From assembly GCA_017506865.1 (NCBI GenBank), contig JAFCMP010000201.1, forward strand, positions 744,001 to 808,000: 64,000 bases of DNA. Reading direction: 5' to 3'. The notes beneath the pieces were generated by a model, which was not told the origin of the DNA, did not search any database, and saw only the letters and a program-made list of their open reading frames with translations. Source of the stretch: Tribonema minus. Its lineage: Eukaryota; Sar; Xanthophyceae; Tribonematales; Tribonemataceae. Positions 1 through 60,284 of this stretch are shown piece after piece. Each line of letters begins with the position of its first letter. Positions within the stretch are counted from its first letter, which is position 1. The position numbers and the translations under genes are program-made.

Positions 1-1289
1 AGAGGTACGTAGGTATATGGCGAAACTGCTGCTGAGCAGCTTAGGGCTTGACCAAAGCTTGGGATTCGAGACAGAGGTACTGGACTTGTGTTCATCGCCT
101 TATATTTATTCAAGAATAGGACAGAGGTAGTGGAAGAACAGATATGCACCCCCCCCCCCAAGCCCACTTGTGTTGCCTGGAGCATTTTAACACAGGCAGT
201 CAGCGGTGCAATTTTTTTATTATCGCAGCATGGCATCCGAGACAGAGGTATGTATGCAGGTATGTGCAACTGAGACCTCGGGGCGCGTCTTGCGTTACAG
301 TAAATGCCCAAGTAAACACCCCCCCCCCCCGGGCGAGCGGATCTGGACCTTTGCACAGCACGCCCATGGGCGTTTACATGGGGGAGGGGCCTGTACAAGG
401 GTGGGGGGGCTTCTGCTCCATTTTGAATTGCCAGCTAGCAGAGGGGGCGTTTACAAGGGGGAGGGGCGTTTACTAGGGCCCCGGAGGGGGCATTTACAAG
501 GGTGCGGGCTCGAAGCGATAATTGAGTTCAAGTTCGGCTTGCAGTTCGGCTTGAATTCGTTATCTCCCGGCTGCTTTTGCAAGCTCTGTGCCAACCTGCA
601 GCCATTATGGTTGCTAGAGGGCGTTTACAAGGGGGGGTGGGCGTTGTTGCCCACTTTGCCCTGGCAAGCACGCCCATGGGCATTTACAAAGGGGACGGGC
701 TTATACATGGGGGGGGGGCGTTTACTCGGGCATTTACGGTATTGCCATTACGTGTTGCCAGGGCACCTGACAATGGCCCCGAGTAACGTAGCCCTTGCTC
801 AAGATTGGACTAGGTCAAGGGTTAGCACGCCCCTTGCGGGCCGAACTCAAAGCAGTTCATGAATTCACAGGTGTTCACGCGCGCGTGCTGGGCCATGAGG
901 GCGCGGCTGCAGCACTTTGACCTTACCTGCCTTTGCTGAGCGCTGCTGCTTTTTCATGAATTCACGTCGTAAAATTATTTATTCACAAGCGCATGCTGGG
1001 TTTTGGAGGCCTCGCCCTGCCATGCTCGTTTTTGCTGAGCACTGTCATTCATTCATGAATTCACTGTGCATCAGGTGTTCACGCGCGCGTGCCAGGCCAT
1101 AGAGGCGCACCTGCAGCACATATCACATGTGGCCTGACCTTATTTTGCTGAGCGCCTGCTGCTTGTTTATGAATTTAAATTAAATCAGGTATTCACGCGC
1201 GGGTGCTGGGCACTGGAGGTCCAGCCACAGCACCTATATAGCCCCTTTGCTGAGCGCTGCTGCTTTTTCATGAATTCATGAATTCACAG
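1..1289. repeat. Left-edge intron sequence with exon-edge copies and a G-rich array
   Basis: No convincing exon here, apart from a possible 19-base one at 229-247 (CAG before it, GTATG after it). Three copies of its end (GAGACAGAG or GGACAGAG followed by GTA or GTAC/GTAG) lie near 66-78, 117-128 and 238-250. Positions 355-735 hold a G-rich repeat described separately. From 850 to 1289 a unit of roughly 105 bases repeats about four times (starts near 852, 952, 1050, 1165). Each carries TTCATGAATTCA, then a degenerate copy of the start of exon 1290-1441 with its CAG acceptor. The fifth copy is the exon itself. Confidence 0.6.
355..735. repeat. G-rich GGGCGTTTACAAGGGGG repeat array
   Basis: The core GG(C/A)(G/A)TTTACAAGGGGGAGGGG and close variants recur about eight times (for example near 367, 447, 465, 488, 610, 675, 717). 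Some are joined by ACGCCCATGGGC, itself a short palindrome that occurs twice (near 359 and 670). Runs of four or more G are dense enough for G-quadruplex formation on the + strand. No reading frame is shared by the copies, so a coding role is unlikely. Confidence 0.6.
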
Positions 1290-4200
1290 GTGTTCACTCG
1301 CGCGTGCTGGGCCATGGAGGCTCGGCTGCAGCACGCGGTTGACCTTATCAAGGGGGACAGGTTCCTAGGGGATGCGCACTGGGAACTGGTCTGGCGGTAC
1401 CTACCCGTGCTCACGGCCAAGACGTACTGGCACAGGATCAGGTAGGCATTTGTCAGTGGCTGAGCACTGTGCGTTATACTAGTACAGGTATAGGGAATGG
1501 CAACATCTACCTACTTTGAAGTATTTTTGTAGAAAGCGCGAGTGGCGTTACCTACCCGTGCTCACGGCCAAGACGTACTGGCACAGGATAAGGTCGGTGT
1601 CTGTCAGCTGCTGAGCACGGTGCATTCTATTAGTATAGGTATAGTGAATGGTAACATCTACCCATTAGTGTAGTTAGAGTGCATAGCGTCCCCTACCCGT
1701 GCTCACGGCCAAGACTTACTGGCACAGAATCAGGTGGGTGTTGTCTCTTGCGGATTTTCGGATGCTCGCATGCTCTATGTTCACATTGCTGCTTTCGGAA
1801 GCTGAGCGCTATGCGTAATGATGCTGTTGTCTGAGCGTTGTGCATTCCGACATTGTAGGTGTAGGAAATGGCGATGCCTACCCTTGCGACGCCTATCCTT
1901 ATGGCCAAGACGTATTGGCGCAGCATCAGGCTCGTGTCTTTCCGCTGGGGGTGAATATGCTGAGCGCTTTTCGTTGTCATGCGCTCATATTTATGCGTTT
2001 CAAGACATGTATATAGAAGTATATATATATATATATGTGTGTGTTTATAAATACTCTGCTACAGTTGCTGGTCCGGTGCCACGCTAGGAGTGCTGCACAG
2101 TCTGCTGCCTCTCCCAGACTCTTGGCAAAAACCTCACACTCTATAAGGCCTGTTCCCCTTATCTTTGCAGGCAGGCCAACATTGTGCTGTCCGACGTGAC
2201 GTGCGCTGCGATTTGCTTTTGTATATGCGTTTTGAATCACTTCACACTGTTTACGGCCTGTTCCCCGTTATTTGGAGTTCTTGCTGTAGCATAGCAGGCG
2301 TGCGAGAGAGACGCCAATTGCATCGATCAGAGCACCTCTGTTGTTCCTCCATGCAAAAGCAAGTGATGGGTGCTGTGCATTGTGCTGTCTGCTGTACGTA
2401 TTGGTGAGCTCATGTACTTTGCAGTACCATGCATACAAAGTGCCTTGTACTCATACGCCACACATTTTCTTTGTAATCTGCAGGCAGGGCAACATCGTGC
2501 TGTCCGATGTGGAAGAGCAAGACCTGCGCCGCATGGCCGATGAGCAGGACGAAGCCGAGTGGAGCGCTGCCATGAGTGCGGGGTTCAGCCGTGGCAGGCG
2601 GCTCCAATACGACATTGGCACAGCTCTACACAAGGCGATACATTGGGTGATCGAGCACGTCATGCCAGGCAAGGGTGAAACGTAGCCTGCATGACATGTA
2701 TTTTCCGCCAGCAAAGTTGAAGTTGATGATGAAGTTGAGCGCTGCCATGAGCGCCGGGTTGAGCCGTGGCAAGCGGCTCCACTACTACATTGGCACAGCT
2801 CTACACAAGGTGATACACTGGGTGATCGAGCATATGATGCCAGGCACGGGCGAAACGTAGCCTGCATGACATGTATTTTTAGCCAGCAAAGTTGAAGTTG
2901 ATGATGAAGTTTGAGCGCTGCCATGAGCGCCGGGTTGAGCCGTGGCAAGCGGCTCCACTACGACATTGGCACAGCTCTACACAAGGTGATACACTGCGTG
3001 ATCGAGCATATGATGCCAGGCACGGGCGGTACGTAGCATGCATGACATTTATTTTCAGCCAGCACAGTTGAAGTTGAGGATGAAGTGGAGCTCTGACATG
3101 AGCGCCGGGTTGAGCCGTGGCAAGCGGCTACACTACGATATTGGCACAGCGCTTCACAAGGCCGTACGTTGGGTGATTGAGCACGTCATGCCAGGTAAGG
3201 ACACAACTTAGCATGCAATCTAAGTTCAAGTTGGTGATGAAGTTGAGAGTATAGTGCGGGGTTGAGCCGTGGCAAGCGGGTACACTACGGCATTGGCACA
3301 GCTCTACACAAGGCGATTCACTGGATATAGGAACACGTGAGGCCAGGCAAGGGCGGAATGCGCACTCGATCAATCAGTTGTATGTTGCGTTGTGCTGCGG
3401 TGGTGCAATGCGTATCAACGTGATGTCGGTGTTTTGCAAGCCGAGCAAAGTTCAAGTTGATGATGAAGTTTGAGCGCTGCCATGAGTGCAGGGTTGAGCC
3501 GTGGCAAGCGTCTCCACTACAACATCGGTACGGCTCTGCACAAGGCTATTCACTGGGTGATCGAGCACGTATGGTGATCAATCATGTTCACTACTGTCTG
3601 TGACATACCCTGCGCGTTTCATGGATACGCCGCACGTGGTACCAACGGCATTTACCTTCAGCAGCGGCTTAGGCACCTACATGCAATTGGTAGGGTTAGA
3701 GCTAGGGTTCACTCCAACGAATGATAAATGCATTGTGACTTTCAACATTGATATTTGTGACATTGCCGCTTGCGTTTCATGACTACAGGTGCAGCAGGGG
3801 GTACCAACTACACTCACCTTCCGCAGCGGTTGAGGCACCAGTGGTACCGATATCACCAGGTACTTGGCGAAATTACACTACTACTTCATCCAGCATGCAG
3901 TTGGAAGTTGTTTGAGTAAATAAACCCTTGGTAAACAATTGTGTACTGAGCAATGCTTAGAAGGTGGATGCCGTCCGCACGTGCGTGCTTTGCACTTACT
4001 TATGGCATCCTTTCTTGTTGCTCATTTATTTACTGTTAAAGACCCAGTGATACTGATTTCACCAGGTACTTGACTGTTGTTGTGATGCTGTGACATCCTT
4101 CGTGCAATCAGTACTTGCAGATACTGCAATAGTGTACTGCACAGTGCTTCGGCAGATGCTGACAACAAAAGCTATTGCCCATTGAAGCACATTTCCAGCT

Positions 4201-7200
4201 TACATGATGTTCACAGCACAGCATCATTCTTGACACTGTGATTGCCATATGCACACGTGCCATGCGACATTGCAGCAAAGTGCGTGCAGCGCTCGCGTGC
4301 CTACAGTTGTACCAGTGCGTTGACATGTATGCCTTCCGGAGCTCTGCTCATTTATTTCTCGGGACACATTTCGTTCTTGCCTGCAGCTGAACAAGGGCTG
4401 ACAAGGCAGGTTTTGATGTTTCAAACGCCTGGTCTCCTATGCCAAAACGCTTGCTGTGCTTTGTATGTTTTCGCCGACCATTCTGCAGATTGCGGTTGCA
4501 GGTGCATGGCCACTTGCATCTTGTGTGCCTCATGCCTGAAGTGCTGATAAAATCCTGCGTACTCTTGCACACCCCAAGCCCTCATTATTTGTCTGCATGT
4601 ATCCTGCTATATTTGCATATGTGTGCAGCAATTTCACGGAGGGGCGGCAGACGTGACGTCCCAGGTATGTAGGTATGCCTGTGGTAGGGTTACTAGAGGG
4701 ACATCTTTTAGGGTTTGGTTCAAGATCAGATCGAGACCAAAGTCAAACCATACTGGACAGCTCATTGTGTGAACTGTGCACACACTAGAGCACTCAGCGA
4801 ACCAGCACTCTGTTGTGTTGCTGTTTCTCATTTTAAAATGTGTGTGTCTTACTGTGCAGATTGAGCAGGCGCGCATACACGCTGCCGCAATTGTCAGCGT
4901 CAATGGTTATGTGGGCTGCACCTATCTCATCACGTCGACTCAATACGTATATCAAAGCAAGCGCAACCATCTTACCCGCAATCTCTGCTGGTGTTGATCA
5001 TCATTCAATGCGGGCGCGGAATTGTGCAGATTGAGCAGGCGCGCATGAACGCGCTGTCGCAAATGTTTCTTGTGCTGAATCTACCTCCTCATGCTGTCTA
5101 CTTCTATATACCTTCAAGAAGTGAATATGCAGCAACCAGACTGTTGCCCTCACGCTCTGCTGGTTTGCACCATCATGGAATGTCCCTCTCTTCTGCTGGT
5201 GTTGATCACCATGCAATGCGCATGCCTGACTGCGCAGATCAAGCAGGCGCGCATGAACACGCTGCCGCAAATATCCCTGCGCTTATCCAAAGGATGCACC
5301 TACCTGATCGCTGACTATGAGTGTACACAACCATCACTCTTACCCGCATTCACTTTTGTGCTGCATGGGACTCTAATGCGTTCACTATCGTGCAGATTGA
5401 GCAGGCGCGCATGAACGCGCTGCCGCAAATGTCCCTGCGCATCGACGCATAAACGCATAAAGCGCACCTACTATACATCACGACGCCAACTATATACCTA
5501 CAGCAATAGGTATCAGACCTGCCCGCGACGTCTGCCGGGTGTCATCGTGTGTGTTTCTTTGATATTTTATTTGTGCAGATTGAGCAGGCGCGCATGAACG
5601 CGCTGCCGCAAATGTCGCTGCGCATCGACGCGTGGGCGGGCGCGGAGGAAGCGGACGGCGCAGACCACCTGCAGGCATTGCTCGGCGCAGCAGCGCTCGA
5701 CAGTGGCAGCAGTGCTCCGTTCGCGCTGGATGGCGCTGCGCCGTTTGACCAGGGAGGAGAGGGGGGGCTCCGACCAGCACGCTCTGACGACACTGCAAGG
5801 TGAGCGCTGCAGCATTCTATCTCCCCAAAGTATGTTTCAAAAAGGCAGAAATGTGCTTCAATAATGCAGCAGCGCTCGACAGTGGCAGCGCTCCATTCAC
5901 GCTCGACAGCAGTCGGCGCTGCGCCGTTTGACCAAGGGGGCTGTGGCCAGCGCGCTCTGATGACACTGCAAGGTGAGCGCTGCAGCATTCTATCTTCCCA
6001 AAGTATGTTGAAAGCATAAAACAATGCAGCAGCGCTCGACAGCAGCGGCAGCGCTCCGTTCGCGGTCGACACCAACAGTGCTGCTGATATGTGCTCCCCT
6101 GCATAGGCGAATCATTACACCCTAAATAACCAATACCCCCCCCCCCCCCCCCCAGACTCAGCAGCCCCCGGAGCCTGGCCTCCCCCCCTTTCTCCCGCCC
6201 CCAAGACCGCGGCTCCCCCCCGCTACCCCCCAAATCGGGGGGTGCCCCCCTCCCCAAGGGGGGTCAGCACAGCTCAGCCCCCACTTTGGGTGAACCCCCC
6301 CACCCGGGGGCTGTGGGAGGGGGGGCCAAGGGGATGTTGTCAATGTACCCTGACTTGGCGGCGCTTGCGGTTGGGGGGGCGCAGGGGCGTGCGCTTGCTG
6401 AGGAGATTGCGCTGCTGCGCGGGACACGCGAAGCGGCTGTGCAGGTGCATACATGAAAGTACTTCAAAAGTATACTATGTGTTTAAAGTTCAAGTATGTA
6501 TTGAGGAGATTGCGCTGCTGCGCGGGACACGTGAAGCGGCTGTGCAGGTGTGTAGACATAAGTACTTCAGAAGTATACTACATGTGTATACTTCGAACAT
6601 GTACTTCGAAGTATTGAAGAAATTGTGCTGCTGCGGGGACGCACGAAGCGGCCGTGCAGGTGCATACATAGAAGTACTTTAAGAGCATACTTATGTGTGC
6701 AGACATCATGAAGAGATTACGCCGCAGTGCGTGACGCGCAGCGCGGGACACGTGAAGCGGCTGTGCAGGTGTGTAGACATAAGTACTTCAGAAGTATACT
6801 ACATGTGTATACTTCAAACATGTACTTCGAAGTATTGAAGAAATTGTGCTGCTGCGGGGACGCGCGAAGCGGCTGTGCAGGTGCATACATAGAAGTACTT
6901 TAAGAGCATACTTATGTGTGCAGACATCATGAAGAGATTACGCCGCAGTGCGTGACGCGCAGCGGCCATGCATGTGCATAGATAAAAGTACCCTATACTG
7001 TGGTTGTGCATGTTGAGTAGATCCAAGAACCTTATACTGTGCGTGTAAATGTTGAGTATATGTAAAGAGATTGCACTGCTGCGCGGAAGGCGCGAAGCGG
7101 CGGTGCAGGTGTACACGAACGACCCAAGCATGTTCCCGTGCATGAAGTGTGTATGCGTTCTTTGAAACGTCGTGCTTCTAAATTGCACTCAGCGCTTTCT

Positions 7201-10200
7201 TCTTTTTTTTTGTTCGCCGAGCATACATACTGGTGCATTAGCTTGAAATGTATTTCAAGCATGACTGTGCAGGTGTAATTTGGGTCCTTACAAATCTCAA
7301 ACTGTGTGACGGTTTTGGGGGACGCGGGAAGCGGCCGTGCAGGTGCATACAAAGGGATACTTGAAGAGTATAAAAGGATGCCATGGTTGTGTGTAAACCT
7401 TGAAGTCTGTAGGTAGAAGTACAGAAGGAGTGCGCAGCTGCATGCCGCGAGGCGGCGGTGTAGGTATACATGAACGACCTGGGCATGGTACCATGCCTGA
7501 GGTGTATTGCGTTCCTAGAATTATGGTGCTTCTGAATTACAAAGCGTACAACTGCGCACGGTGTACACAACAAATGCAATTGATATAACTTGCACGCAGC
7601 GCTTTTATTTCAGTGTCATCGAGCGTACATGCTTGTGCACGTAGCTCACAATACTTTCCAAGCATGTCTGTCGAGGTGCAATTCACGTCCTTACAAATCT
7701 CAAACTATATGACTGTTCAGGTGCAATTCGGGTGCGCACAACTCTCAGCGGGTGGCCGGGAGTGTGTGCTCATCAGTCCGCGTTTCTACCCAAGTCATTC
7801 ACAAGGCATTTGATTTCCATTACTTCATTCTTGAAGTGTCGTCCATACATTGCTGTCGGCCCCCTGGGTTGCGTTTCATCCGCGCACAAGTATTCGTACA
7901 TGTGCAAAAGAAAGGCATCACGGCATTCATTACCATGATTTCATTTAAGAAAATGTATTTCACCGCTGTCGTCCTCAGGGCGTGCGATCTGCGGAGGAGC
8001 GCCTGTACGAGCGCGAAAGGGCACTTGAACTTGCAACTGCGGCAGACGGCGATGACAGCGGCGGCGAAAGCGCAAGTGCGCCGCAGCACAGAGGGCTTGG
8101 GTGGGGGGGCAGCGAAACCGCTGTTCGCACCGCAACTGCCCCGCTGAGCAGCCGCATCCGCAGCATGAGTCTGAGCAGGTGCGTCAGAAGTTGAACATGC
8201 TTGTTGAAGTTGGTGAAGCGCCTACCTTGTTGAGCAGCGGCATCCGTAGCAGCATGAGCTTTGCAGGTGCGTCAGAAGTTGAACATGCTTGTTGAAGTTG
8301 GTGAAGCGCAACCTTGTTGAGCAGCCGCATCCGCAGCAGCATGAGCCTGAGCAGGTGCGTCAGAAGTTGAACCTGATTAGTGAGTTGGTGAAGTGCCTAC
8401 CTCTTGGCCATTGTCATTGTATTGGTGCGCTAAAAGCACTGGACTGTGGTAGGGGGCGCACCCTTAGAACTCGAGATCAACACAGCACTTGGAGATGTCA
8501 GAAACCGATAATGTTGCACTTTGCTAGCTGTTGCGTCAAGCTTGATGTGCACCTTATCGCGAGATGAATTGAGCGGCATACGCAAATTGACGTACTACAT
8601 AGATATTCTACATCCATCAGATATCAAATGAGGATCAAGGGCGCGACCGCCGCCTCAGCTGTGCACGCTAACGCCACCTCCACCAGTGTATCTTGGTTTT
8701 CCACAAACTATGTTTCCTCTCGCTTTCTACACTTCGATGTATATGCAGATGAGCTGCTCTTCCTCGCCCAGTTTTCTGACACAAACACTGGGTGTGCAAT
8801 CCTTCACTCTTGCACGATATTATCAGGAGCCAGGCCGCTACCTGCGCTGGCGTATCCTATCAATGGTATGCACTACATCCATGTGATGTCCGATGCAGGA
8901 GCAATGGCACGCCCGCCGCCGCCACTGCCCGCGCTGAGATCGCATCCAACGGTGTCATAGCAAACTACAATGCTATTTCATGTTCCCTCGCTCGGTCTCC
9001 TTCCCTCTTCACATGTTCATGCCCAGGCGCACACCCATACCCTCTGATTGTTGAAGCTTAACCCTAACCCTAACCCTAACCCTAGCCCTAAGACATGATT
9101 CACCGCTGTCTATTCACATCATTCACCGCCCTTCCTCAATGTTATCAGGAGGAAGAGCACGGCCGCTGCCGCCGCTGCCTTGCATGCCAGTACATTTCAC
9201 CCCAGCCACATCTTTGCCCTGATCAACATATACGCTACTTGAAGCACTTGAAGTACACTGTTGTGTGATGTCCAATGCAGGAGCACGGGCGCGGCCGCCG
9301 CCGCCGCTGTTCATGCCGACGCCGCCTCCAATGGTGTCATTGCAAATCACAAGACTTTGTCGTTCCGCACTCGGTCTCTTTCTCCATTCACATGTATATA
9401 CATTCATACCAGGCGCTCTCCCACACCTCAGTCGTGTCGCAAACGTCTGATGCCATACTCTGCCGCTCTCATGCGATGCTCACAGGAGCAAGGGCGCGGC
9501 CGCCGCCGCTGCTTTCACGCCGACACTGCGTTCAACAGTGTATAATCGCTTTCCCCAATACTCCCTTTCATCGCTCTCTATACCTCGAAGTGTGTGTATG
9601 CATATCAGCTACTATCTCTCACCACGGAGACTGTAAACATTCGCTGTTCTCTTGCGCACAATATTATCAGGAGCAAGGGCGCGGCCGCCGCCGCCGCTGT
9701 TCACGCCGACGCCGCCTCTAACGGTGGCACGTCTCAGCACTCGGCGGCGCTGTCCGAAGACGAGCACCACGCGGTCAACGGCAACGGCCACGAGGACATG
9801 AGCCAGGGGAGTTTGAACATGAAGGACGCCATGGCGGAGGCACGGGTTCGATTTCTCTCTGCGGTCAAGGCAAATTACCAGGTACTTCTTCTTGTTGAGT
9901 ACTACTTCAAGTTCATCTTGAAGTATGCTTCAGGAGGCCTTCGGTCGGAACATGTGACATGTTGCGATTGTGGTGTGAAGCATACTTCTACAGTGCGCGG
10001 CACAACTTGATGTCAGCGATTACTGTCCGCGATCAAGGCCGATAGCAAGCATCGTCGCGGTCGCAGTCGCACCACTTTTTTCCTCGTGAAGTTCAAGTTT
10101 TCTTTCGCGTCAACTGCTTCGAAGTGCAGGGGCTGCCTGCCTCACTGTTATGACTCATGAGAGTGCCAGTATGCTAGCACTCTTGTTGAAGGCCATCTCC

Positions 10201-28647: not shown

Positions 28648-29991
28648 TGCCGCGTACATAGCGATGTGCGCCGCACTGCACGGGCATCGCTTTTCACAAT
28701 GTGGCGGTATACGGTAGTGATCGCTTTGAGGCAGGTCTGTGTAGAGCCTGGTCGCTTGCAGAGGCTGCCAGTGGCCATGGCATGTGCACGTGTGGCAGTG
28801 ATCATATACAGCGTAGCTCGTCACTGCAGGGCGCATGCATGGGATGTAGACACTGCCATCAGCACTTGCTCGAGGTGCTGATGCACATTTTGTCGAGCAA
28901 TGCTGCTGCTGCTCTGTCGTTCCGGTTTTGACGGCGCAGTGTCACTGCAGCCATGGAGATGTCCGACCTATCTAAATGGCACATCATGGAAATGCCACCA
29001 GTTCAAAGAATCTTGTTTCTTAGCTGCTCTCTCTAAGCTGTGTGTATATTGTGGCGGTGGCACGGCTGTGTGTTGAATGAGTATTCGAAAAAAAATCGCT
29101 CCATTTCGCCAGCTTTTTTTTTAACACAGACCGGGGATTCACAGGCAGGGGGGGCAGGTGAACGGACAGAAGACATCCCATTGGCGCTGCGGTGTGCTTG
29201 AGCATTCTGTCATTTCGCGGCAAGACATGCACACGCAGAAATGATCAACCACAGGAGAGTGTGCGCAGCAGTTTGCGCAGTCATCCCATGACCTCTACAC
29301 ACATGGACTGGAGGTTGCAATGTCTGGGCATCCCGGTCAGCCGCAGAGATCAGCATTGCTCAGCACAGCATCCGTGGCTGTGTAGGACAAGCATGAAGCA
29401 GGTGTAAATTCCGATGCCCGCGGCGCCGGCAACTACTGAACGGTTGCATTTGCTCAAGGAGTTTTTCGAGGCAGGCATAGAAACGCGATGCACCCGTTTG
29501 CATTGCCCAGAAGCAACAGGAGGTACTGACTGGGATGCATTCTGCCTGTGAGCGGACGGTGCCTTGAAATCGAAGTGCAATGGCATCCATTCCTTACTTC
29601 ATGTTTAAAGTGCACAAAGGCTACCTGCAGTGTATTGCGTCCCACTTCAAGGTGCGCTGCTTTGTAGTTACGAATATGGTGTGGCACCAGCGCTGGGCAC
29701 AGCAACGCAGCACACAGGGTGCAGCGACGACAGATGAACAGAGTCCCGAGTGCCTCAACAGGACTTCTGCTTGGGATGATGGTGCACTTCGGCTGCAATG
29801 AAGTACGGCTGCATGTCAGACATGCATCTCTATCTCGAGGCTATGCATCAGTGAAAGCGCACAAACCGTCAGCAACGGTTTCCACAGGCTAGATCACAGA
29901 ACAAAATGTGACAGATAACGCCGCCACCCTTCTTCAACATAATGCAAGGACTGTGTGTATTACAAAGGGGCCGGCATGTATGTACATGTGA
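28648..29991. other. Convergent intergenic region SOS1 / LYRM4
   Basis: This 1.3-kb stretch lies between the stop codons of two converging genes, so it should hold both 3' untranslated regions. I see no coding frame with support, no RNA gene and no clear AATAAA signal. A short A-run at 29088-29094 and a T-run at 29115-29122 are the only simple-sequence features. Confidence 0.5.
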
Positions 29992-32125: not shown

Positions 32126-32667
32126 GTCAACTAGTCCGATTTTTCGCCGACCCTCCTGCCTCCTGCTGCTGCTTCTTCTGCGTTTTTTGCACACTACACA
32201 AACACGAGCACAATTTGAGCACTGCCAGGATCGTTCCGAGGCACTCTCCTCAGACGTAACGTCTTTTTTATTGTGTGGATTTGGCCGAGGGTGCAGTTAT
32301 TGCAGTGCGACCGAGGCTCAACAGTAACTGTTGGTGCTTGTCAATTCGTGTGTGTTTGCAAAAAAGGGAAGACAGAAAGAGTGTCGAGAGGCTAAGGTTG
32401 CTAAGGTTGCGGGCGCGTGCCACGCCGACAGCTATCCTGCACCTGGGCAACGCAGAGGACAGAGCTGAGCATGTCATGCATGCGCTCTGAAATCCCGGTT
32501 TCCCGGCGACCCGCATGATCGCTGATCTGTAGGCATGCAGCGAACACATAGGCACTGCAAAACAGCTTCAGCAACTCTGCAGCAGCCATATCACGAAGAC
32601 ATGGCGCAGCAGCACTTAAGTGGCACATGCAGAAGCTACTGAAGGACTGAACGGAGCGGCGAAAAGG
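32126..32667. promoter_or_regulatory. Divergent promoter region between LYRM4 and CDPK
   Basis: The two predicted start codons face away from each other 542 bases apart, so both 5' untranslated regions and a shared or bidirectional promoter should lie here. No TATA box or known motif could be assigned with confidence. A short upstream AUG for the CDPK transcript exists at 32601 and ends after six codons. Confidence 0.5.
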
Positions 32668-35600
32668 ATGGGAGGGACCGTGGGGAGGGTGTTGGCGCAC
32701 CAATACACCCATTCCTTCACGGAAAACCGCAGGGAGCTGCAATCGAACTTAATGCGGCGGCGAAAAGATATGGACGCTGACAGCTTCTACGACATTGCGG
32801 AAGTCATAGGGCTTGGGTCAATGGGTCAGGTGAATGCAATGTCCTCGCAAATATGCTCATGGATGTGATTTGCAGCATCTGTTCCGTCATGTTGAAGCTG
32901 TCTTACTTGCTGTGCATGTCGGTGCAGATTTTCAGGGTCGTGAAGCGGAGCACAGGCCAGGTGTTTGCGCTCAAAACGATTCAGCTGGCCAGAGTCACGA
33001 AGGCAAGTCTCATGTAACATATACTTCAACACCGACAACACCGACACTGACACAGCTGATAGGCTGCATGAGGATCATGTCTTAATTGTGGCTTGCTGCA
33101 GCTTGAAGCAGTACTGGGAACCTGTTTGAACTGACACACGCACGCTCTCTGCTTTGGTATGTCGGCGCCGTGCTGGCAAACATGCACAATATCAACTGAG
33201 CAAAAAAGTGTTTTGGCAGCACATAGGCTTGAAGCTGTGCTGTGTAGCCGTGCAGCGTGACCCTTGTTCTGTCAGCCACCATGCAGGAATTCATGCTGGT
33301 GTGTCACGGTGTGACGCAATTACTTGAAGTTCGAGGTGCACATCTCGATCTAGGATGCAGGTTTGAAGCGATGCACCTCTCCTTCCTTAATCTCTCTGAA
33401 GAAACATTGGCGGTGTGTGTGCCTGTGCTCTGCTTGCAGAAAATGGTCAATGAGCTGCAGAACGAGATCGACATCTTGCAGAACCTGACACACCCCAACA
33501 TTGTACGTGAGTACCGTGAGTCAGGCGCAGTGATCTGCAGACGTGAAACCTTGAAGTTGAGGGTGCATGTGCAGAGAGGGAGTGCATGTGGTTTTAACTG
33601 CAGCATTATGATCGTGCCTGCTCACGGGTAGGGTGCGAGTCTCACCTGCTAGGGTGAGAAGAGTACTCTTAAGGTTTATGTGCCCACTGATCTGTGCGTG
33701 CATCAGCTGCATGTGGCTCCACATTCAGCAGCCACTGCTCTGTGCTTTTAAGCGATTCATATTGTGCGCACGGTTGGCAACACCATTGAAGCTACAGCTG
33801 CGGAGGTCCATGGCAGACATGCAGCAGGGGAGTGGAGCGCAGCTGCACAGTGCTCAGGAGGGAGAACGCACATTGCTCAGTGGCGACAGGAAGGGAGTGG
33901 GGGGGGTGGGGGGTGGCGGGGGGGGTGGGGGGTGGGGGGCAGGGGGGACGGGGCTCAATGGCTACAGTGCTCAGCAAGACTGTGGTGATGCTCAGCTGCA
34001 CGACTGAGAGCTTCAAGTGCTAAAACTTCAAGTACAACGCTCAGCTCTGTCGGGCAGCGCGCCTGTTGCTCAGTGTGACAACATGGCGCTGCTGCGCAGT
34101 TGGGATTGCATGCCCCGATCTGAGGGTAGCACTTGACGTTGTCATTACATCTTGCACTCACAATGTTCAGGGTGCAAGCACTGCGCACATGGTGTCGGTT
34201 TGCGGACTTGTGCAAAACGGTGCCATTGCCTTGTGAGCTTTATACAGGCAGCGGTGTTGGCTACATGGGCACTCTTGACGAATGCCAAGTGAAGTTGAAA
34301 GTTGAAGTTTGCTTTTTGTGCTTGCTCATACTTGAAGAAGTATAGCCTACGCGCACTGCAGGTCAGGTCAAAGTCACCGGAATTGGTCACAGCAAACGCC
34401 CATCACATTGGTTCGTCTGATGGCATAGCGTTGTACTCCAACGCAATGTTCAACTTGTGCACTAACATCGGGCTGCATGTCCCCCCTATCATACCTCGCT
34501 AATGTCCATGACAGGGCCTCTGGAGGTGTTTGTGATGCATCGGCATATACAGCTCATCATTGACCTATGCGGGGGAGGGGATTTGTATGCGCGAAGGCCA
34601 TATACAGAGGCGGCAGCAGCGATAATTTGCCGGCAAATCCTCAGGTACAATTATCATTGCACAGCACATGTGTACATGAGTCGCATATTTTGCTTTTTCT
34701 ATAGGTTTTCCGCCATTCAAGCGGAAGTACTTCGACGTAGAAGTCCAGTTGTCAAGTTTAATGAGCAGGGTTAGGCTGCCCTGCACATGAACTGCCTCCA
34801 ACTGATGTCTTGCATGTATATTTCAACTACTTCAAAGTCGGTGTATGTAACTAAGCAGATTTTCGGGCTTTGCTTTGGTGTACATTTATACTCGCAAGGC
34901 AAGCATTTGAAGTTCAAGTCCATGAATACTTTAGCTCCAACACTTGCACTAAAGCAGCCGCGGTAATTCGCCGGGAAATCCTCAGATACATTGAGCACAT
35001 GGTGGTGCCCTACACGTCAACTAAACCAAGTGTTGTCTTTGCATGCATTCCTCAACTATGAGACAAAGAAACACTCTGGACTTTGCTTTCTGTACATGTA
35101 TAGTCACAAGGCGAGTCTTATGCATTATGTGTCCATAGCCACTCAAACTCAAACCCTAACCCCAACTCCAACCCGTCCTCTGATCCTAACCCTAAGTTAA
35201 CTCGTGACGTCAACAGTTATTGCACAGTTGAACTGGTACCATATGATATTGTGCACTGATCTTCCTTCCGAGCATTCACATCTCGCATAGTGCCTCCGTA
35301 GATTGAATGCGTAACAGGAGACCCTGAGGAAGCGAAGCTCGCAGTGTCATCGTTGCTGCAGGCTGTGGCATTGCCTATCGTGATGCCAATACCTACTTTA
35401 AAGCTCAAACCCAACAACCAGTCGGCATGTTGTGTGCTGTTGTTGTTGTGTTGCAGCGCAATAGCTTACCTACACTCCAAAGGTGCGTGCCCGTGCGTTA
35501 CTGCGATAACATGCAGATTTCGCTTTTGTTACACTCGCCACCCTGATAATGTCCAATCGTCGTAAAAGTGGTATTAAAGGACTACTCCAGCGTACCCCCG

Positions 35601-38600
35601 GTCTTGCGTATGCACACCTCGCTAGGAAGACGGGGGTCTTATACGACATTATAGATGTCGAATGGGGGGGTCTTATACGAGAGGGGCTTTATACTCCATG
35701 ATTTACAGTACATACCGCATCTCCTGTACGCCTGCCACTTCATGAGCAGCGCCATGATGTGCATACAAACGCAATGTGCACCTTGATGTGAACTGTGTAT
35801 TGATACGCTGTTGGCCTGGCTGACAATGCAATGGCCAGTAACTACAATACCGGACTTGTGCATGGCCGGGGTGTTGATCTGGCTGGAATGAAGTGATCAT
35901 GCTGCGGGGTCGTTGAGCATCTACCTCGAAGTGGCGGGACTAGTGTGTTGAAGTTCATGAACCTTATTGTGCCCATGCAAGAGCCCTGAGCGTGGTGGCC
36001 TTCAAGAGCACTCTGAAGAATGCTCTACCTAGACTTTGGCGTACCTTTAGGCATTTGTGTGCACTCCTGGTATCAAATGCAAACCCATCTGGCTGTCTGT
36101 GCGCCTGTGGAACATGCCTTCAATGATATACATTAAGATGAAGGGGTATCCTGTGAGACACCTTTCCAGTCAACGCTATATTCACAATACTTGCAGTATG
36201 GATGATGGAGTTGTTTCGTTTTGCCTATGCACATTGGCAAATTGTCGTTGACGTGCGCATTCTGCATACGTTGACTGTTGTTTGATTATCAATGGCACGA
36301 GCTGCAGGTGTGTGTCACCGGGATTTGAAGGTGAGAACAACGTTTCGACACATGCTATTCACGATGCATAGCATGCTTGCAGCCTTCCAGTCCAGTTGCG
36401 TGATGAGTTAGTTGCCTGACCAGGCAGCAACATATGCTTGCATTCACAATGACATCATGTTCGAGAGAGAACTCCCAGATGCGGCTGTGAAGGTGAATTG
36501 AACTGAATTTGAATTTGAACCACCTTACTGGGAAATCTGTTTCTGGAAACAGGCTGAGGGCATCCTATGCAATAACCTCATAAGCTGATCGGCTGTAGGC
36601 ATGCAGTTTATCAGCCCACTACATATACTGCAGGAGTTCGGTCACAGTTTGCTATGCTTGATGGTCTTGCATGCGCGCAAATGAGCAGAGTGCACGGGAA
36701 GAAGTTGAAGCGAATATGAGTAGCCTTTATGCTGACAGTAGTCAATGTGGTTTTCTATAGTTGAAGTTGCACCAAAACACTTCTGCTCCACGCTGGGAGG
36801 CGCTCTTGTTGCAGTTTTATAAATGTTCAAATTCACTGTTGCTATTGCAGTGCTGAGCACTGCCGGACACCTTTTGGTATATATTCCGCTGGAGAGCGAC
36901 CTCCCACACATGCCGCTATGAAGGGAAATTGAAGTTGAAGTTGAAATTGACACATGCCGAGTGCTCTCTGACACAGGCTGAGAGCACCCCCTTGCCAGTA
37001 CTCCCACAAACAGTGTTTTGCCGTTACTGGATTCCTGCTGCCCGGATGCATACCCGCATGACCATACATACATACCCCAAGTGGCACATCTTGAACTGGG
37101 CCACGACTTCCTCGTGCTGAGCACTGCTGCATGTGTGCACATGTGACTCTCCCGCAGTTCGAGAACATCATGTTCGAGAGCGACCTCCCAGATGCGGCTG
37201 TGAAGGTGAGGCTGAAATTGAAGTTGAAGTTAAAGCACCCAAAGTGAACTGGCATCCATCTTTGAATACAGGCTGAGAGCACTCCCTACGCGATACTCCC
37301 ACAAGCTGTTATGCCATGCCGAAATCACCTCAACGTCCAACTTCAACACTGCTGTGCATTGCTGGTGACTCAGTTTGACCGCTTAATCTGCTCAAGCTCT
37401 CTTGGCACATGTTGTGCATCTGCAACTGCTACTGTAGTGCTACAGCGCATTCAGGCGAGTGACACACTTTGTCAAGTGTGTGCGCCGCCATTATGTGTAG
37501 CTGCATGACCATACATGCATACCCCAAGTGGCACATCTTGAACTGGGCCACAACTTCCTCGTGCTGAGCACTGCTGCACGTGTGCGCATGTGACTCTCCC
37601 AGTTGCTCGACTTTGGCCTCAGCGCGCGGTATCGCGAAGGCGAGCAGCTGCGGAGCACTGTGGGAACAGCCTACAGCATGGCTCCGGAGGTACAGTACAG
37701 GATCAGGCGAACAACTGTGGAGCACTGTAGAGCTATTAAAGCATGACCCCGGAGGTGAAGTGTTTCAGCGCTAAAATATGGAGTGCGGCTAGAGGTTCCG
37801 CGTCGGATGCATGTGTGAGGGCAATTTTTACAAATAGAGTTGCAAGTAATGTAAGCTCTGCTGGTGATGCAGAACTGCCATTCGCCATGCACGATTAGGG
37901 TTAGGGTTAGGGTTAGGGTTAGGGTCAGGTTTAGGGTTAGGTTTAGGGTTAGGGTTGGGTTGGGTTGGGCATTAGGGTTAGATTTAGGATCAGGCAAACA
38001 ACTGTAGAGCGCAATCGTTACAAACAGAGGTGCAAGTACTTAAGCACTGCGGGTCAGGCAGAACTGCAACTCGCCATGCTTGGAGCCTGGTACGGCACTC
38101 AGCGCCAAACTGATATCGCAACATGCCAGCAATTCCTGAAATTTGGCCATCTGTGCGAGTAACCTTACACAGTGGGCGGCAGGGCCCCACGGGAGGCCTC
38201 TGTGCACCTGATGCACACCAGAGGTCCTAGCTGCACCACATGCTTTGCTTATGGCCCCTGGCTGATAACAGGCCGTCTGTCCCTTGGTGTTCAGTCTGAC
38301 AGGCTGACTGACAGGAGGAACATTAGAACTGCCCTGGTTACCTGTGTGAGCGCTGCTGCGCAGTACAGCAATGCTCAGCACCACGGCAATGACCCTGACT
38401 CGCCACTTCCACTTCATGATGCTGCTGCGCGAATGACAGCAGACCGCCATGAGCGTTTGCTTGATGTTGCATGTGAGCACTGCACACAACGACCCTGACT
38501 TGGCCCTCACAATCATGGTGCTGCTGACCGGCTTTCAAGTGCTCGTCGATCACACGTGCAGTACAGCAGTGCTCATAGTGCTGACCTGCCCACAGGTGCA

Positions 38601-41600
38601 GGTGCACAAACCAGCAAGTGCTCAGCAACACAGCAACAACTCTGACTTGGCCCCGTGACTCATGTTGCTGCTGACCAGCCCAGATGCTCGCCGATCAGAT
38701 GCGCAGAACAGCAGTGCTCAGCAACGCAACAACGACTCTGACTTTGACTCTGACCCTGTGACTCATGGTGCTGCTGTCCCCAACTGCTCGCCGATCGGAT
38801 GTATGTACAGTACAGCACTGCTCAGCACCACATTAACGACTCTGACTCTGAGTTGGCCCTCAAATTATGACTTGGCCTCTTTGCCTCATGCTGCCCCCAG
38901 GTGCTCGCCGACCAGATGTACAACCAAGCGTGTGACCTGTGGAGCGTAGGCGTTGTGCTGTACATGATGCTCTTTGACAAGATGCCCTTCGCCCCTAAGG
39001 TGATTGAAAGCGATACACGCGGTATGTAATGGCTTTCTTGCAGGCGACAACTGTGTGGCAATGGGTCAAGTGCTTCAATGCCGCAAGTTCTGTAGACATG
39101 ATGCTCTTTGACAAGATGCCCTTCGCTCCCAAGGTAATTGTCATTTGCTGCGACACACGCGCTGTGTGGGGGTATCGGTATGTAATGGCATCCTTGAAGG
39201 CGAATGGTGTTGCAATGGGCCATGTGCTTCATATTGCAAGTTCTGTCAGCATGCTGCGCTTTGCATGAGATGCCCTCTGCACCCAAGGTGATCGTCGCTT
39301 GCTGTGGTGCGAGTATTTGATACCTATATGTGCGCACCTGCTGTCAGTTGCTTATCGTAACACTAGGGTTAGGTCACTTACATAGGGTTAGAGTGTTAGA
39401 GTTAGCATACGCCTGCCTTCCGATTGCCTTCACAGCTCATCAGAACTGCAATGCCACTTTGTCACTGTCCCAATGGCTACAGCGGAGTTGCAAGGCAATG
39501 GCAGACAAGATCCGAACCGTCAAGATGGCAGACAAGATCAAGAAGGCAAGTTTTGTCCCATCCGAAGCGCATATGGCTCCTGCTGTGCCATGCAACTTGT
39601 ACACTCTGGCTGCACACCTACACTGAATGGCTGTTGCATGATTCATATGTAGATTGGTGTCATAACTTCTTATACTAGTGCACAAAGCCTGCTCCCCACT
39701 GGATCTGATTACACCGTGGCTACCTATTTGTAGAGCACATAATGCTTTTGAAGTACGTACATTTAACCTCAAGGCATGACGCACCTGCTATGCTTATACT
39801 CGTGTCTATGCAACACATTCAACTTCAAAAGGTGCTCGTTGCTGAACTGTTCTGCTTGCACCGTGTATACCTACAGTATACCAACATTAGCGCCAAGGCG
39901 AAGGAGCTGGTGTGCCATCTCAACATGGTCTAGAAGTACATACATCACCGTCATGGCATAACGCACCCCGCTATGCTTATACCCTGTGCCTCTGCAACAA
40001 CTTCGTGATCTACTGCGCATGTATCTGTTGCTGAACTGCTCTGCTTGCACCGTGTTCACATGCAGTACACAAACATCAGCGCCAAGGCGAAGGAGTTGGT
40101 GTGCCGTCTCATGGAGTTGGATGCCAACAAACGCATCACGGCGTCACAGGCACTGCTGCACAAGTACATGGTCTGGGCACGGTATGTGAAGAAAAAACAA
40201 AAAAATCATGAAACAAAACAGAACATGTATGCACGTACGCTTCCTCGAAATGGTTCTGCAATATGTTCCAACAGGGCTGAGCATTACGGCGCCACAGGCG
40301 CTGCTGCACAAGTACATGGTCTGGGCGCGGTACGCAAATCTAACCGTCACCCGAACACTAACTTTAACCCTAACCCAGTCCTACTCAAAGCCAATTTCAC
40401 ACATGACTTGCAGACATGGTGTTGAACGCATTTACGCTTTTCTGAATGCTCTCTGTGAGATGCTCCAAAAAGGTAGCTCCAATGGGGTGCATTTAGAGTG
40501 AGAGGTAGGATTTTCTTCTAGGGGTTGGCGGATTTGGCTTCGCGTGGTTGCACGCGTAGGTTTCAGCAATGGAGACATTACATGCAGTTTTCAACAACGG
40601 AGAAATGGCATGCTCAGTCTGCGCGCGTACTGTAACTGGGGTTAGGGTTAGGGTTAGGGTTAGGGTTAGGGTTAGGGTTAGGCAGCCAAGCGCGCTGGAA
40701 CAAGATGATCGCTCTGTCACGTGTGCACGCTCTGCAAGAACATAGGCAACACACCTGCAACATATTTTCCTTTTACACTTTACTCCGTTCACAGTCTACC
40801 TTATCCTTGTAAACGTAATGCCCAGCATGTACTTTGTATACACGTTGTACTCACGAGGTAAATGCGTTTACCATCGTGTTCACAATGGGTATGTATGTAT
40901 GTTGCAGAGACGGCGCCAAGTCCAACAGGTCCACAGACGGCAAGGACATCATGTGCAGCCTCCAGCGCTACAGCAGCTACGGCAAGATGCGGCGAGCAGC
41001 ACTCATGGTGGTGAGCCGTGTTGCCAAAACCCTAATTTCCTAACCCTAAACCTTGACCCCAGTCTCAGCTACGGCAAGATACGGCGAGCAGCTCTCATGG
41101 TGGTGAGCCGTGCTGCCCTAACCCTAGCAATAACCCTAACCGCCACCCTGAACCGTAACCCTCACCCTAGCTAAGGCAAGATGCGGCGAGCAGCCCTCAT
41201 GGCGGTGAGCCGTGTAGCTTTAACCCTAAAAACAGTCCAAACCCTAGCCTTGGATCATAACTCCAACCCCGAGCTCGTTCCTAGCTCTGAACCTTAAACT
41301 CAGCTGCGGCAAAATGCGGCGAGCAGCCCTCATGGTGGTGAGCTCTGTCCTGCTCTAACCCTAGCTCCAATCCTAGCCCGAAGCACAACCCTACCTCTAG
41401 CTACAGCAAGATGCGGCGTGAGCCGTGCTGCTGCTCTACCCCTAACCCTAGCCCTCATTCTAGCCCTGAAGCATAAACCTAACTCTGAGCAGTGTCGCTC
41501 ATTTCTCCTGTCACCGCATTCGACCTGTCGATTTTTCGACCGGTGGTCCGTGCAGTGTCGTTTCCCAAGGCAAGGCGTAATCTTTTTCGTTGCATCTGCT

Positions 41601-44600
41601 TTCGCGGTAACCACAGTGGTGCGCCTTGCCTTGTACCATGTCTGTGTGCTGGCTGATTAGGGTTGATTTCAACTTGTTAGGGTCAGGGCTATCTTAAGCG
41701 TAACATGGCGCTACGCCGGTCCTTCGTGGCCACTGTTCATCGACTGCTATGCTATGTTGGAAAGTAGGATGCTTGGAACAAGTCCGTAGAGGAGACAGAG
41801 TGCAGACTGGAGAAGTCTAGCTAGTTGCTGTAAAGCGTGAAGTGAATATTAAGCACAGGTCCAGGCTGCCTCCACCGGGAAGGCGCGAATAAGGCGCAAT
41901 CGTACAAGTGCAATAAGGCACGGTGGAACCTATAAAGCATAATGGTGCCACCAGTCATGCCCCGGGGTGACTGGAGTCCCCCGGCTTAACCAATGCTGAG
42001 CAGACACAGAAAGCCTGCAATTCCAACATGCTATTGCCCTGCGCCCCTTCCCCCTGAACCCCTGTTTGATTCTTGTGCGCAACAAATCATTGTTCCGTGC
42101 CAAGAAGCGATAAATTATGTCTTACTTGAAGTGTTGAGCTGTAGAACGCACAACATGTACCACCCCTCTGTGGCATGCCTCATTGTGGAAGATATCAGGC
42201 ACAACAACGCTGCTTGACAACACGTCATTCGTATGCATGTATGTATATAGCTGCTGTCAGTAAACATCTGAAGTTGGTGCATACATGCATACCCTCAGGT
42301 GGCGCATCAGTGCTCGCCGGAGCAAATACGCGACCTGCGCGATGTGTTCACCAGCTACGACACAGCGGTGAGTTGCCACAAGAATCTTGTACACTTCAAG
42401 TTCAAGCAATAACTGTCATTCATGTCACGCTCGCACATGTATCTTCAATCAGAGGTGGCTTATCAGTGTAAGTCTGTGGCTTGAGAAAGAAGACCTATAC
42501 AGTTGCACTGTTACGCAATTGTTGCACAAGGGCTAGCCCAACTGAGCATGGCTACAAATGCTGACCTTGCCGTATTGTTATTCAAGCTCAGGGTGGATAC
42601 ACAAGCGTTATCAGTAAGTGCCGCAATGGTGGCTGCTGCGCAATTGCATACAAACGGAACTCGACATCTGAAGACACATCAATACTTTGCTGGCGATATA
42701 GCGAGCAGCCCTGCATCAACGCAACCCCTGTTGCAGCTGCCCACCATAATACAATACTTCAAAGTACCTCACATTGGCGATGTATATTTCAAAGGCATTC
42801 GAATTGTGAATCCATGCATGAACATAGATAGTCCACCTTCAACTTGGACAATTGCCATGTCAAGAGGATTTTGCTACAGCAGGCGCTGCTGCAACACGCT
42901 ATGAGCGTGGAGCACATACCTGTATATCACTTCAAACTGTACATATATTAACTTCAACTTCAACACCAACACTTGCCATGTCAGGAGGACGGAACCATTA
43001 CGGCCCTCGAGCCAGCAGGCGCTGCTGCAACACGGCATGAGCGCGCGGCAAATACATGCACATAAACTTCAAAATGTACATATACTAAAACTTTACCTTC
43101 AACTTCAACAATTGCCATGTCAGGAGGACGGAACCATCACGGCGCTAGAGTTGCAGCAGGCGTTGTTGCAACACGGCATGAGCGCGCAGCAAATAGGAGA
43201 GATATTCAGTGGCGTTGACATGGACAACAGGTGCGCGGGCAAGCTTCAAGACCATGTTCAAACTTTAACATCATGTGCATGACTTCAACGGCATGATGTA
43301 ACCTCAAACAACGAGCAGGTGTAATCCGAGACTGAAGCCTTGCTCTGGAGAGGCGATGTGCAAAGCAGCAGCCGCTGCTCTGCTCGCATGCTGCAACTTG
43401 AAGATGGTAAGACTTAAAGAAGTCCTGCACTTCATCTGTGTGGACTTGCAAGCAGCAGGCATCCCTTGCTCACTCTATGGATTCAAACTTTGATTGTGTA
43501 GATTTCCTGTGCCGATGTTCTGCTCTGCGAATTACGAGGAGAGGGGCCCACTGTGGATCCCTGTGTTGCATCGCATCATTTTGCGGCCTCAAGAGATGAA
43601 GAGAGGTGATTGCTAGTTTGATTCAAGGTGTAATGTCAACACACTAGCGGTTTCTGAAAGGCACTGCTATTTCAAACCACATGGCAATGCTGTGACACTT
43701 AGTTTTTGACGATCATGTAGAAAGGTTGCAAGAGGGGCAAGGTGTCTACCCTTAACCCCTGAACCCTGAGGGCAAACGTACACATCTACACTACCCTTCT
43801 CTGCGCTGGTTAAAACAAAGACATTCCAGCATTCCAACGCTGTTGTGCTGCGTTGTACTCTCTGCAGTGGCAAGCTGGACTATACTGAGTTCCTAGCAGC
43901 GACGGTCGAAACCATGGGCTTCCTAGCTGAGGAAAAGATCATGGAGGCATTCAATAGGCTTGATGAGGATGGGAATGGCGTCATCACAGATATGGAACTG
44001 CGGAAACTTCTCGGCAAGGTACGCGGATGAATCCTCGTGGACAGAGTTCGAAAGGAGTACATGCGTTATCGCGTTATCTCACTGATGAAGGCAGCTAGGT
44101 CGCTTGCCGATTTGCAAGCATACTGTGCACATGTCAGGGCGCATGAAGGGCATAACTTATCTGAGTCAAACGAGTGCTTGAGTCGATGAGTGAACCTTAA
44201 GTCATATGTGTCAGCGCTGTCCGGCATATGTTGAAACTACGAGTAATGCATTCAAGTGCTTGAATTGATCATCGGTCAATCTTGTGTCCTCAACAACACG
44301 TGCAGCACGTAATCTGCTAACCCCTCTGTCACCAGATGACAACAGCACTTCAAGGCGCCATATGCATGGAAATGCCATCTTTGAGCACAAGTGGAAAAAG
44401 TGTGCTGCCGACTTTGGAGTTGCCGCTTGTGTGCCAGCTTTCTTTTTCGCAGGGCATTGGTGCCTGCAATGTTTCCGATGGTTTCTGCGATCAGGACTTG
44501 GACCAGGAATAATGACGCTTACCCCAATTGTTCTCTTCAAAAAGGTTTCCGAAGTAGACGTCACGGCTGTTGCGTTTGCAGTCACGTCATGCTCACCGCA

Positions 44601-45525
44601 ACCACCACAGAGCTGCAAGCCCGTGTTGCTATTACCATTGTTGTCAAACCGCCCCTGACCCCAGCCCTTCAAACCCCAGCTGTACAAATTTTCTGTACAC
44701 ATTGACCCACACACGCCGCACTCCATTCATTAAACCTAACCCTCACCCATATTTCAATTTCATCCCTATCCCTAACCCTTACCTATTCAACCCTTACAAG
44801 CAACCTTTGCTCACTACAACTTTGAAGACGTTGAGGCCATGATAGCGGAGGCGGACAATAACCATTTCTGTTCACCTAACCCTAATTATAACCCTGACAC
44901 TAAACCTAACCCTAGTTATACCCCTAACCCTAACCTGAACCCTAAACCTTCTGCGCAGGGCTACAAGTTTGAAGACGTGGAGGCCATGATGGCGGAGGCG
45001 GACAAGAACCACTTCTGTTGACCTCACCCTAGTTGTAACCCTATCCTTTGACCTAACCCTGATTATAGCCCTAAACCTTACCCTACACTCAATCTACATG
45101 CGCCCTGTGCGCAGGACTACAAGTTTGAAGACGTGGAGGCCATGATAGCGGAGGCGGACAAGAACCGCGACGGCCGCATCGACTTTGACGAGTTCATGCG
45201 CCTCATGCTGAGCACTGCCTCAGACAGGAGAGTCACCACCTCGCGTTCCCACAACCGCGCCGCGCTCGACGCCATGCGTATGGGCGCCGACGCCTCCAAC
45301 ACCTTCTCTGAGGACGACCGCACGCACGCCATCTCCGCCGCCATTGCATCTGCGACCGCCGCTGCCGCCGCTGCCGCTGCCGCCGCCGCCGCTTCCGATT
45401 CTGACTCAGAGTCGCCACCGCAGTCGCCGAAACATGCCAACGGCAACGGCGGCAGCGGCAGCGGTAGCGGCGGCGGCGGCGGTGGCGGCGGCGGCGGCAG
45501 TGGTGGCCACAGCGGCGGCAGCGGC

Positions 45526-45556
<31 letters not shown>

Positions 45557-56933: not shown

Positions 56934-56964
56934 CTGCAGCACTGGTGCTGGTGTCCTGCGCTCG

Positions 56965-60194: not shown

Positions 60195-60284
60195 TAATGA
60201 AAGTACGTATGGACTTGTATTTATAAAGGCCCAAGGGAGGCCGGGTTGCCTATGCAATCGAAAAGCTTGCGTCAACGCAGCAGC

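Follow-up and report, generated by a model that had tools for sequence, protein, structure and literature searches.

How does an intron come to hold several degraded copies of the edge of its own exon? The question is raised by a 64,000-nt stretch of Tribonema minus contig JAFCMP010000201.1 (hereafter the window), where an earlier note described introns built from tandem copies of neighbouring exon ends in three unrelated genes: one that we take to be SLC9C-like, encoding the cytoplasmic part of a Na/H-exchanger-like protein, an LYRM4-like gene, and a CDPK gene. These copies, here termed exon-edge echoes, are real and include the splice site in all three genes. They form local tandem arrays on the correct side of the exon, carry splice sites with them, are nearly absent from exon cores, and are patchily distributed among genes. 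Local tandem duplication within genes, filtered by splicing and selection, is probably the best explanation for them.

The exon edges of the SLC9C-like and CDPK genes were probed with 30-nt sequences, and a result was scored as positive when it exceeded all 40 length-matched slices of other introns. By this measure, 26 of 38 introns and 33 of 76 edges (19 donor and 14 acceptor) were positive, and 24 of the 40 exons carry an echo on at least one side (16/25 in the SLC9C-like gene and 8/15 in CDPK). In 5 of 16 tests, probes from exon middles also rose above every control in the intron downstream, which counts against edge specificity. In a wider gene set, 52 of 187 exon edges are echoed, on the correct side, in the intron next to them, compared with 3/935 at other loci, 1/187 in reversed introns, and 6/182 in the opposite intron. 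The copying of exon edges with their splice sites in three unrelated genes, as originally described, therefore stands, at a frequency above random.

Outside the window, echoes were found in a CNNM/CBS gene and a DJ-1-like gene on contig C3 (together 8/18 edges), in two chaperonin CCT genes (L027, 2/2 edges; L028, 1/8), and in genes for a carrier (1/8), a galactosyltransferase (2/8), and HPPK/DHPS (2/8); the echo-bearing contigs include C3, C51, C201, and C235. No echoes were detected in 6PGDH (0/22 edges), SNF2 (0/10), or the genes of locus L023 (0/12), and 6PGDH and SNF2 are intron-rich, yet echo-free in the same genome. The pattern is thus shared by several other genes, although not by all. 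The edge sample was not random, since L027 was picked for an echo detected by a profile hidden Markov model (HMM), L028 was picked for having none, and L021 is, in our reading, the upstream part of the SLC9C-like gene. Without the window genes, L021, and L027, 14 of 94 edges are echoed, and the window genes (30/81) are richer than average; the claim that nearly every exon is echoed overstates the extent of the pattern. Exons outside the window came from a predictor trained on the window, except that the L027 exon was placed by eye and HMM position, and all were checked by peptide identity. Pfam matches were obtained for eight peptides, and none at 1e-5 for the DJ-1 and LYRM4 peptides, which, like the L023 genes, were named by eye.

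Among ab initio exons scoring at least 25 at random loci, 5/109 donor and 8/109 acceptor edges were echoed, against wrong-side controls of 3/109 and 1/109. Because many of these exons are transposon or spurious open reading frames, we switched to recognisable genes, although the low figure still stands. In profile searches, PF00118 matched 56 times, and at three places (C51, C5, and C135) the matched parts of the profile clearly overlapped. PF00063, for which 65 of 139 candidates were scored, matched 99 times and showed such an overlap clearly at one place (C522). Most echoes are too short for HMM detection, and these counts were therefore not used for prevalence. In a search of the 158-Mb genome that skipped very common words, two exons with echoes and two linkers matched nothing beyond their own neighbourhood, and the origin of the echoes is thus local for the sequences searched.

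Within introns, the copies are arranged head to tail in tandem arrays, often at near-constant spacings (e.g., 175/176/175, 93/90/91/91/97, and 131/128/135/133) that mostly lie between 88 and 231 bp and range in full from 88 to 429 bp. The exon part of a copy has a median length of 46 nt for donor and 48 nt for acceptor echoes, with probes of at most 60 nt. The arrays and related duplications of the window are as follows.

856-1347, plus strand: acceptor-side echo array of exon 1290-1441 (SLC9C-like gene, as are the exons below up to 27350-27856)
1392-1947, plus strand: donor-side echo array of exon 1290-1441; 3 copies, spacing 151/141/196
2166-2511, plus strand: acceptor echo, exon 2484-2668
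2558-3570, plus strand: donor echo array of exon 2484-2668 (GC donor); 5 copies, spacing 175/176/175/152/231
4808-5631, plus strand: acceptor echo array, exon 5579-5799; 4 copies
5687-6074, plus strand: donor echo array, exon 5579-5799
6399-7541, plus strand: donor echo array, exon 6156-6444; linker type alternates between neighbouring copies (two-unit blocks)
8145-8402, plus strand: donor echoes, exon 7979-8178; spacing 88/88
8608-9729, plus strand: acceptor echo array, exon 9671-9881; 5 copies
9849-10420, plus strand: donor echo, exon 9671-9881
10733-11248, plus strand: donor echo array, exon 10688-10776; 5 copies, spacing 90-97
11459-12153, plus strand: acceptor echo array, exon 12089-12314
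12259-12466, plus strand: donor echo, exon 12089-12314
12756-13035, plus strand: donor-side duplication with only ~12 exon nt of exon 12684-12767; 30-nt probe not above controls
13957-14196, plus strand: acceptor echo, exon 14166-14278
14223-14825, plus strand: donor echo array, exon 14166-14278
15320-15687, plus strand: donor echo array, exon 15255-15426
18365-18758, plus strand: donor echoes, exon 18318-18395 ("exon 15" of the earlier note); weaker copies by eye
24645-25084, plus strand: acceptor echo array, exon 25041-25194; CCCTAA-like repeats abundant in linkers
25106-25360, plus strand: donor echo, exon 25041-25194
25784-26251, plus strand: acceptor echoes, exon 26201-26407
26371-26539, plus strand: donor echo, exon 26201-26407
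27807-27993, plus strand: donor echo, exon 27350-27856
30134-30943, minus strand: acceptor echo array, 5 copies, LYRM4-like last exon ending at 30213
34613-34990, plus strand: donor echo, CDPK exon 34515-34644
36452-37315, plus strand: copies of CDPK exon 37158-37205 and flanks; upstream copies include the exon
37638-38010, plus strand: donor-side duplications, CDPK exon 37603-37689
38357-38920, plus strand: acceptor-side duplications, CDPK exon 38901-38999
38962-39304, plus strand: donor echo array, CDPK exon 38901-38999
39742-40111, plus strand: acceptor echo, CDPK exon 40066-40181
40133-40332, plus strand: donor echo, CDPK exon 40066-40181
40974-41486, plus strand: donor echo array, CDPK exon 40908-41010 ("exon 12" of the earlier note, exon 11 in our model); spacing 92/102/133 for three copies
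42819-43195, plus strand: acceptor echo array, CDPK exon 43124-43230; spacing 138/139
44767-45166, plus strand: acceptor echo array, CDPK exon 45115-45976; spacing 147/156
48825-49815, minus strand: five-copy array by predicted exon 48596-48860 of an unnamed gene, model unsupported; acceptor-like by eye

The last of these is not an echo by the wider edge test, which compares an edge's own intron with controls. The linker types that alternate beside exon 6156-6444 are as expected when two-unit blocks re-duplicate. Among the arrays singled out initially, the five copies beside exon 10688-10776, the four beside CDPK exon 40908-41010, and the five beside the LYRM4-like exon were all recovered. The array beside exon 6156-6444 is present with six donor copies above threshold rather than about eight, and of the four copies reported for exon 18318-18395, two pass the threshold, with weaker ones in 18412-18490 recognised by eye only. 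Copies closer to the exon do tend to be better preserved (67 of 99 comparisons within arrays, ties set aside), and the closest copy is the best one in 13 of 24 arrays.

The gene models on which these edges rest were compared with other proteins. The SLC9C-like gene spans 1290-28647, with 25 exons in one open frame except at the link between exons 2 and 3. An exchanger domain (PF00999; Pfam, E 2.1e-45) lies directly upstream in locus L021, and the two parts are found together in several homologs; we read L021 as the upstream part of this gene. A homologous exchanger aligns to exons 1-2 and again from the last part of exon 6 through exon 18, leaving exons 3-5 unaligned, and within the aligned exons it contains no echo peptides. 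The predicted protein holds one 33-residue stretch absent from the exchanger homolog P0121; exon 18318-18395 lies inside this stretch and is perhaps lineage-specific or mis-modelled. The LYRM4-like gene is on the minus strand. The CDPK model has 15 exons, and the assembled protein is, over 65% of its length, 100% identical to the public T. minus protein P0001. P0001, itself a protein model, joins model exons 7 to 15 exactly, i.e., at the exon-adjacent junctions, and lacks model exons 4-6. Two introns, at 2669 and 33003, start with GC instead of GT. Elsewhere in the window, 51900-64000 (minus strand) resembles a retroelement with reverse-transcriptase-like peptides. This naming was done by eye on the predicted peptides, and some of them recur in loci L022 and L025. 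The stretch 50752-51076 contains ~60 bp tandem repeats (by eye), most with an acceptor-like CTTTCCCTTGCAG and with no adjoining gene model. An Rfam scan of the window gave no matches at gathering scores.

The echo copies number 103, of which 79 extend to the junction (50 donor and 29 acceptor). GT is kept in 39 of the 50 donor echoes, about the value given by the per-site exon identity of echoes (0.89), and AG in 28 of the 29 acceptor echoes. The production of decoy splice sites was borne out, as 21/50 donor and 10/29 acceptor echoes equal or outscore the real site of their own edge. Donor edges are echoed more often than acceptor edges (31/63 vs. 18/64; p = 0.018, uncorrected for genes). Echo-bearing introns of the window are longer (median 991 bp, n = 22) than echo-free ones (720.5 bp, n = 16; p = 0.008; upstream edge of exon 1 left out), so that the proposed lengthening of introns holds as an association. 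Identity just past the far end of echoes, a crude gauge of microhomology, is 0.17-0.50.

Some features of the intron sequence itself are also worth noting. Across eight gene segments, not all of them random picks, 57.9 kb of intron holds 97 instances of TTAGGG/CCCTAA, where a first-order Markov model predicts 12, and 11.6 kb of exon holds one. These telomere-like repeats (e.g., at 24241-24310, 37895-37980, and 40632-40681) often lie, by eye, within echo linkers, and they could be a mark of break repair. The words TTGAAGTT and AACTTCAA are ~30-fold over-represented in the introns of the same segments.

Does the duplication concern splice junctions or introns as a whole? The gene region contains 50 local-duplication families, of which 21 cross a donor, 13 cross an acceptor, 2 are exon-internal, and 14 are exon-free (strand labels of the minus-strand gene were left as they were). 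Pairs with more than half telomere-like hexamers were left out before counting, and family and coverage counts cover pairs less than 3 kb apart. With exons masked, local duplication accounts for 21-33% of intron bp in the CDPK segment, the CNNM segment, and the two segments of the SLC9C-like gene, and for 0-9% in the DJ-1, MCF, 6PGDH, and SNF2 segments. A profile of 52 donor and 52 acceptor junctions drew on six of the eight segments, without the two echo-free genes. In it, local duplications cover a fraction of 0.58 at donors and 0.31 at acceptors, compared with 0.30 in the middles of introns and 0.013 in exon cores (2,462 bp). Since intron middles are covered and exon cores spared, introns as a whole are built by duplication, and the earlier notion of a process that duplicates junctions as such is not supported. 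Exon edges should also stay visible longer, since one copy alone decays, and pairs of 85-92% identity peak at junctions in line with this prediction. Duplication may be ongoing, as the earlier note held, although only 1.1% of intron-middle sequence lies in pairs of at least 92% identity.

The echoes themselves show this one-sided decay. The distance between echoes (0.17 per site) exceeds that between exon and echo (0.11), as expected if the exon is held still. Over 49 echo-bearing edges, however, exon-echo differences by codon position number 106/1,546, 95/1,552, and 320/1,541. Composition is not the cause of this third-position bias, since the predicted mutability of third positions is 0.99 of that of other positions. 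The ratio of nonsynonymous to synonymous differences (N/S) is alike on the donor (0.27) and acceptor (0.29) sides. An in-frame open product would result from 1 of the 79 junction-reaching echoes, which makes translation of echoes unlikely.

In the explanation that we consider probable, introns in many T. minus genes would lengthen via repeated, imperfect local tandem duplication ("sequence stuttering") in units mostly of ~90-230 bp, by slippage, unequal exchange, or break repair. A unit spanning a splice junction would copy the exon edge along with its GT or AG. A donor-crossing copy would be harmless while the exon-adjacent, 5'-most donor remains in use, and an acceptor-crossing copy while the exon-adjacent, 3'-most acceptor does. 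Pairing of sites across a short exon (exon definition) would pick these exon-adjacent sites and leave the mRNA unchanged, exon-internal duplications would be purged, and the copies would later drift as non-coding sequence; we infer both the neutrality of the copies and the operation of exon definition in this alga.

Several quantities weigh against this explanation. The observed ratio of edge to middle coverage is ~1.9 for donors and 1.0 for acceptors, whereas a simulation of uniform tandem duplication, with junction-crossing units tolerated and exons constrained, gave 0.27-0.57 for donors and 0.43-0.65 for acceptors in three long-run settings, and six shorter runs also gave ratios below 1. 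Once exons are masked, donor-crossing pairs are 3.1-5.4 times and acceptor-crossing pairs 1.1-2.7 times as frequent as uniform duplication would predict, the expectation being built on alignment lengths, which understate unit lengths. The exon-echo N/S of 0.28 [0.22-0.36] lies below the neutral estimate of ~0.5 beside a constrained exon, and the retention of AG is, by our arithmetic, somewhat above the exon-identity value. The donor excess and the third-position bias stand out as two quantitative puzzles. For the latter, the putative cause that we prefer is exchange of sequence between array and exon, filtered for an intact protein.

The alternative that fares best, although rather unlikely, holds that duplication is targeted to junctions through transcription- or splicing-linked breaks or replication trouble (e.g., R-loops at 5' splice sites), with introns growing from their edges inward. 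The donor coverage above that of intron middles, the exon-masked excess at donors, the shortfall of the uniform simulation, and the better preservation of nearer copies all speak for it, whereas acceptor coverage is flat, the intervals of the exon-masked acceptor excess include 1 in five of six settings, 14 of the 50 families have no exon contact, and the excess may in part stem from one-sided exon decay and understated unit lengths. A fuller statement, which we likewise hold to be doubtful, makes splice junctions, chiefly 5' splice sites, duplication hot spots from which introns grow outward from exon edges while arrays exchange with the exon, i.e., a junction-coupled mutational ratchet for intron length; if true, hot spots and exon-array exchange would account for both puzzles. 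Overall, there may be a modest junction preference, mainly at donors.

It is improbable that the echoes are functional, as alternative exon ends or selected splicing decoys. The third-position bias, the low N/S, and the retention of AG would agree with such a role, but next to none of the junction-reaching echoes are in frame and open, donor GT decays about as exon identity predicts, the bias is equal on the acceptor side and on the donor side, where the echo frame is arbitrary, and exon-array exchange through unequal crossover filtered for an intact protein could give the same bias. Introners are intron-creating dispersed elements that remodel introns on a mass scale, and the T. minus units resemble them in this respect and in being intron-only sequence with repeated linkers; introners, however, occur as near-identical copies at many unrelated loci, whereas the T. 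minus units are local and each array copies a different exon. A dispersed element is ruled out for the four queries by their purely local matches, and a mobile origin of the units generally is very improbable. Tandem arrays are prone to assembly error, yet an artefact or chance similarity is equally remote, as the copies differ from the exon by ~11% on average, unlike duplicated contig ends, and echoes occur on several contigs; chance similarity is ruled out by the controls of the window probes, the 187 edges, and the exon-stuttering screen described below.

Partial precedents exist for single elements of the pattern. In potato RdRp, one tandem duplication across an intron-exon boundary copied the branch site, tract, and 3' splice site (PMC4974935); that single duplication made a new intron, whereas T. 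minus has many copies in existing introns, unused as far as tested. The Rogers model, in which an intron is a duplicated AGGT-bearing exon segment running from the first GT to the second AG, does not describe T. minus, because its units include linker from the intron and bring a GT or AG of their own into it. In human genes, exon definition favours exon-proximal sites, with upstream acceptors keeping some advantage (PMC9225289). This proximity rule would explain the use of the exon-nearest copy in long introns, and the donor excess fits the human tendency with its residual pull to upstream acceptors, although the tendency measured in human genes is partial and is applied to the alga by analogy.

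In the literature searched, we found no report of exon-edge echoes in Tribonema or another non-vertebrate, and passages on Tribonema in two papers (PMC12459048; PMC12477816) contain nothing bearing on echoes. The earlier note knew of no named system of this kind; however, the "exon stuttering" (sequence stuttering) described on chicken dot chromosomes by Hron et al. (2026; PMC12954441) has the same anatomy. Its main features are intron repetitiveness, intraspecies length variation, and occasional involvement of exon fragments, and among vertebrates it is reported in birds and mentioned, as data not shown, for gerbil genes. We replicated the chicken screen on the eight T. minus segments at the published threshold (42.1 bits), on the plus strand only and with one shuffle. 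All 54 hits obtained were proximal and none distal; they fell in 25 of 68 introns, and no shuffled hit reached 20 nt.

The two systems share imperfect local tandem copies of tens to hundreds of bases in introns, exon-edge fragments with donor or acceptor in the neighbouring intron, the involvement of neighbouring introns, and a similar length of the exon part (median 36 bp in chicken, 46 bp in T. minus) (PMC12954441). By contrast, T. minus is a stramenopile alga with introns of 48-52% GC and linkers rich in telomere-like repeats; 25/68 of its introns are affected, in segments that were not all random picks, vs. 3.4% of annotated dot-chromosome introns; the median number of copies per expansion is 1 vs. 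4 in chicken; and 29/54 hits vs. >90% lie within 1 nt of the border (PMC12954441). Chicken stuttering is linked to GC-rich genes and dot chromosomes, a link that is not among the authors' three main features (PMC12954441). In T. minus, echo-rich segments have an exon GC of 62-66% and echo-poor ones of 54-59% (eight segments only), which is reminiscent of the GC link proposed in chicken (PMC12954441).

The T. minus pattern is therefore real and striking and, in its repetitive introns and copied exon fragments, an independent case, in a distant lineage, of recently described exon stuttering. Its occurrence in a yellow-green alga whose introns have ~50% GC suggests that introns may lengthen in this way quite generally, provided that surplus sites are tolerated in splicing. 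Every array amounts to a natural experiment on the choice of splice sites, in which the competing sites are nearly equal and the history of copying can be read, and, because exons stay conserved, echoes may serve as a clock for intron growth. The one paper that we found on exon stuttering concerns birds and ties it to GC-rich DNA (PMC12954441).

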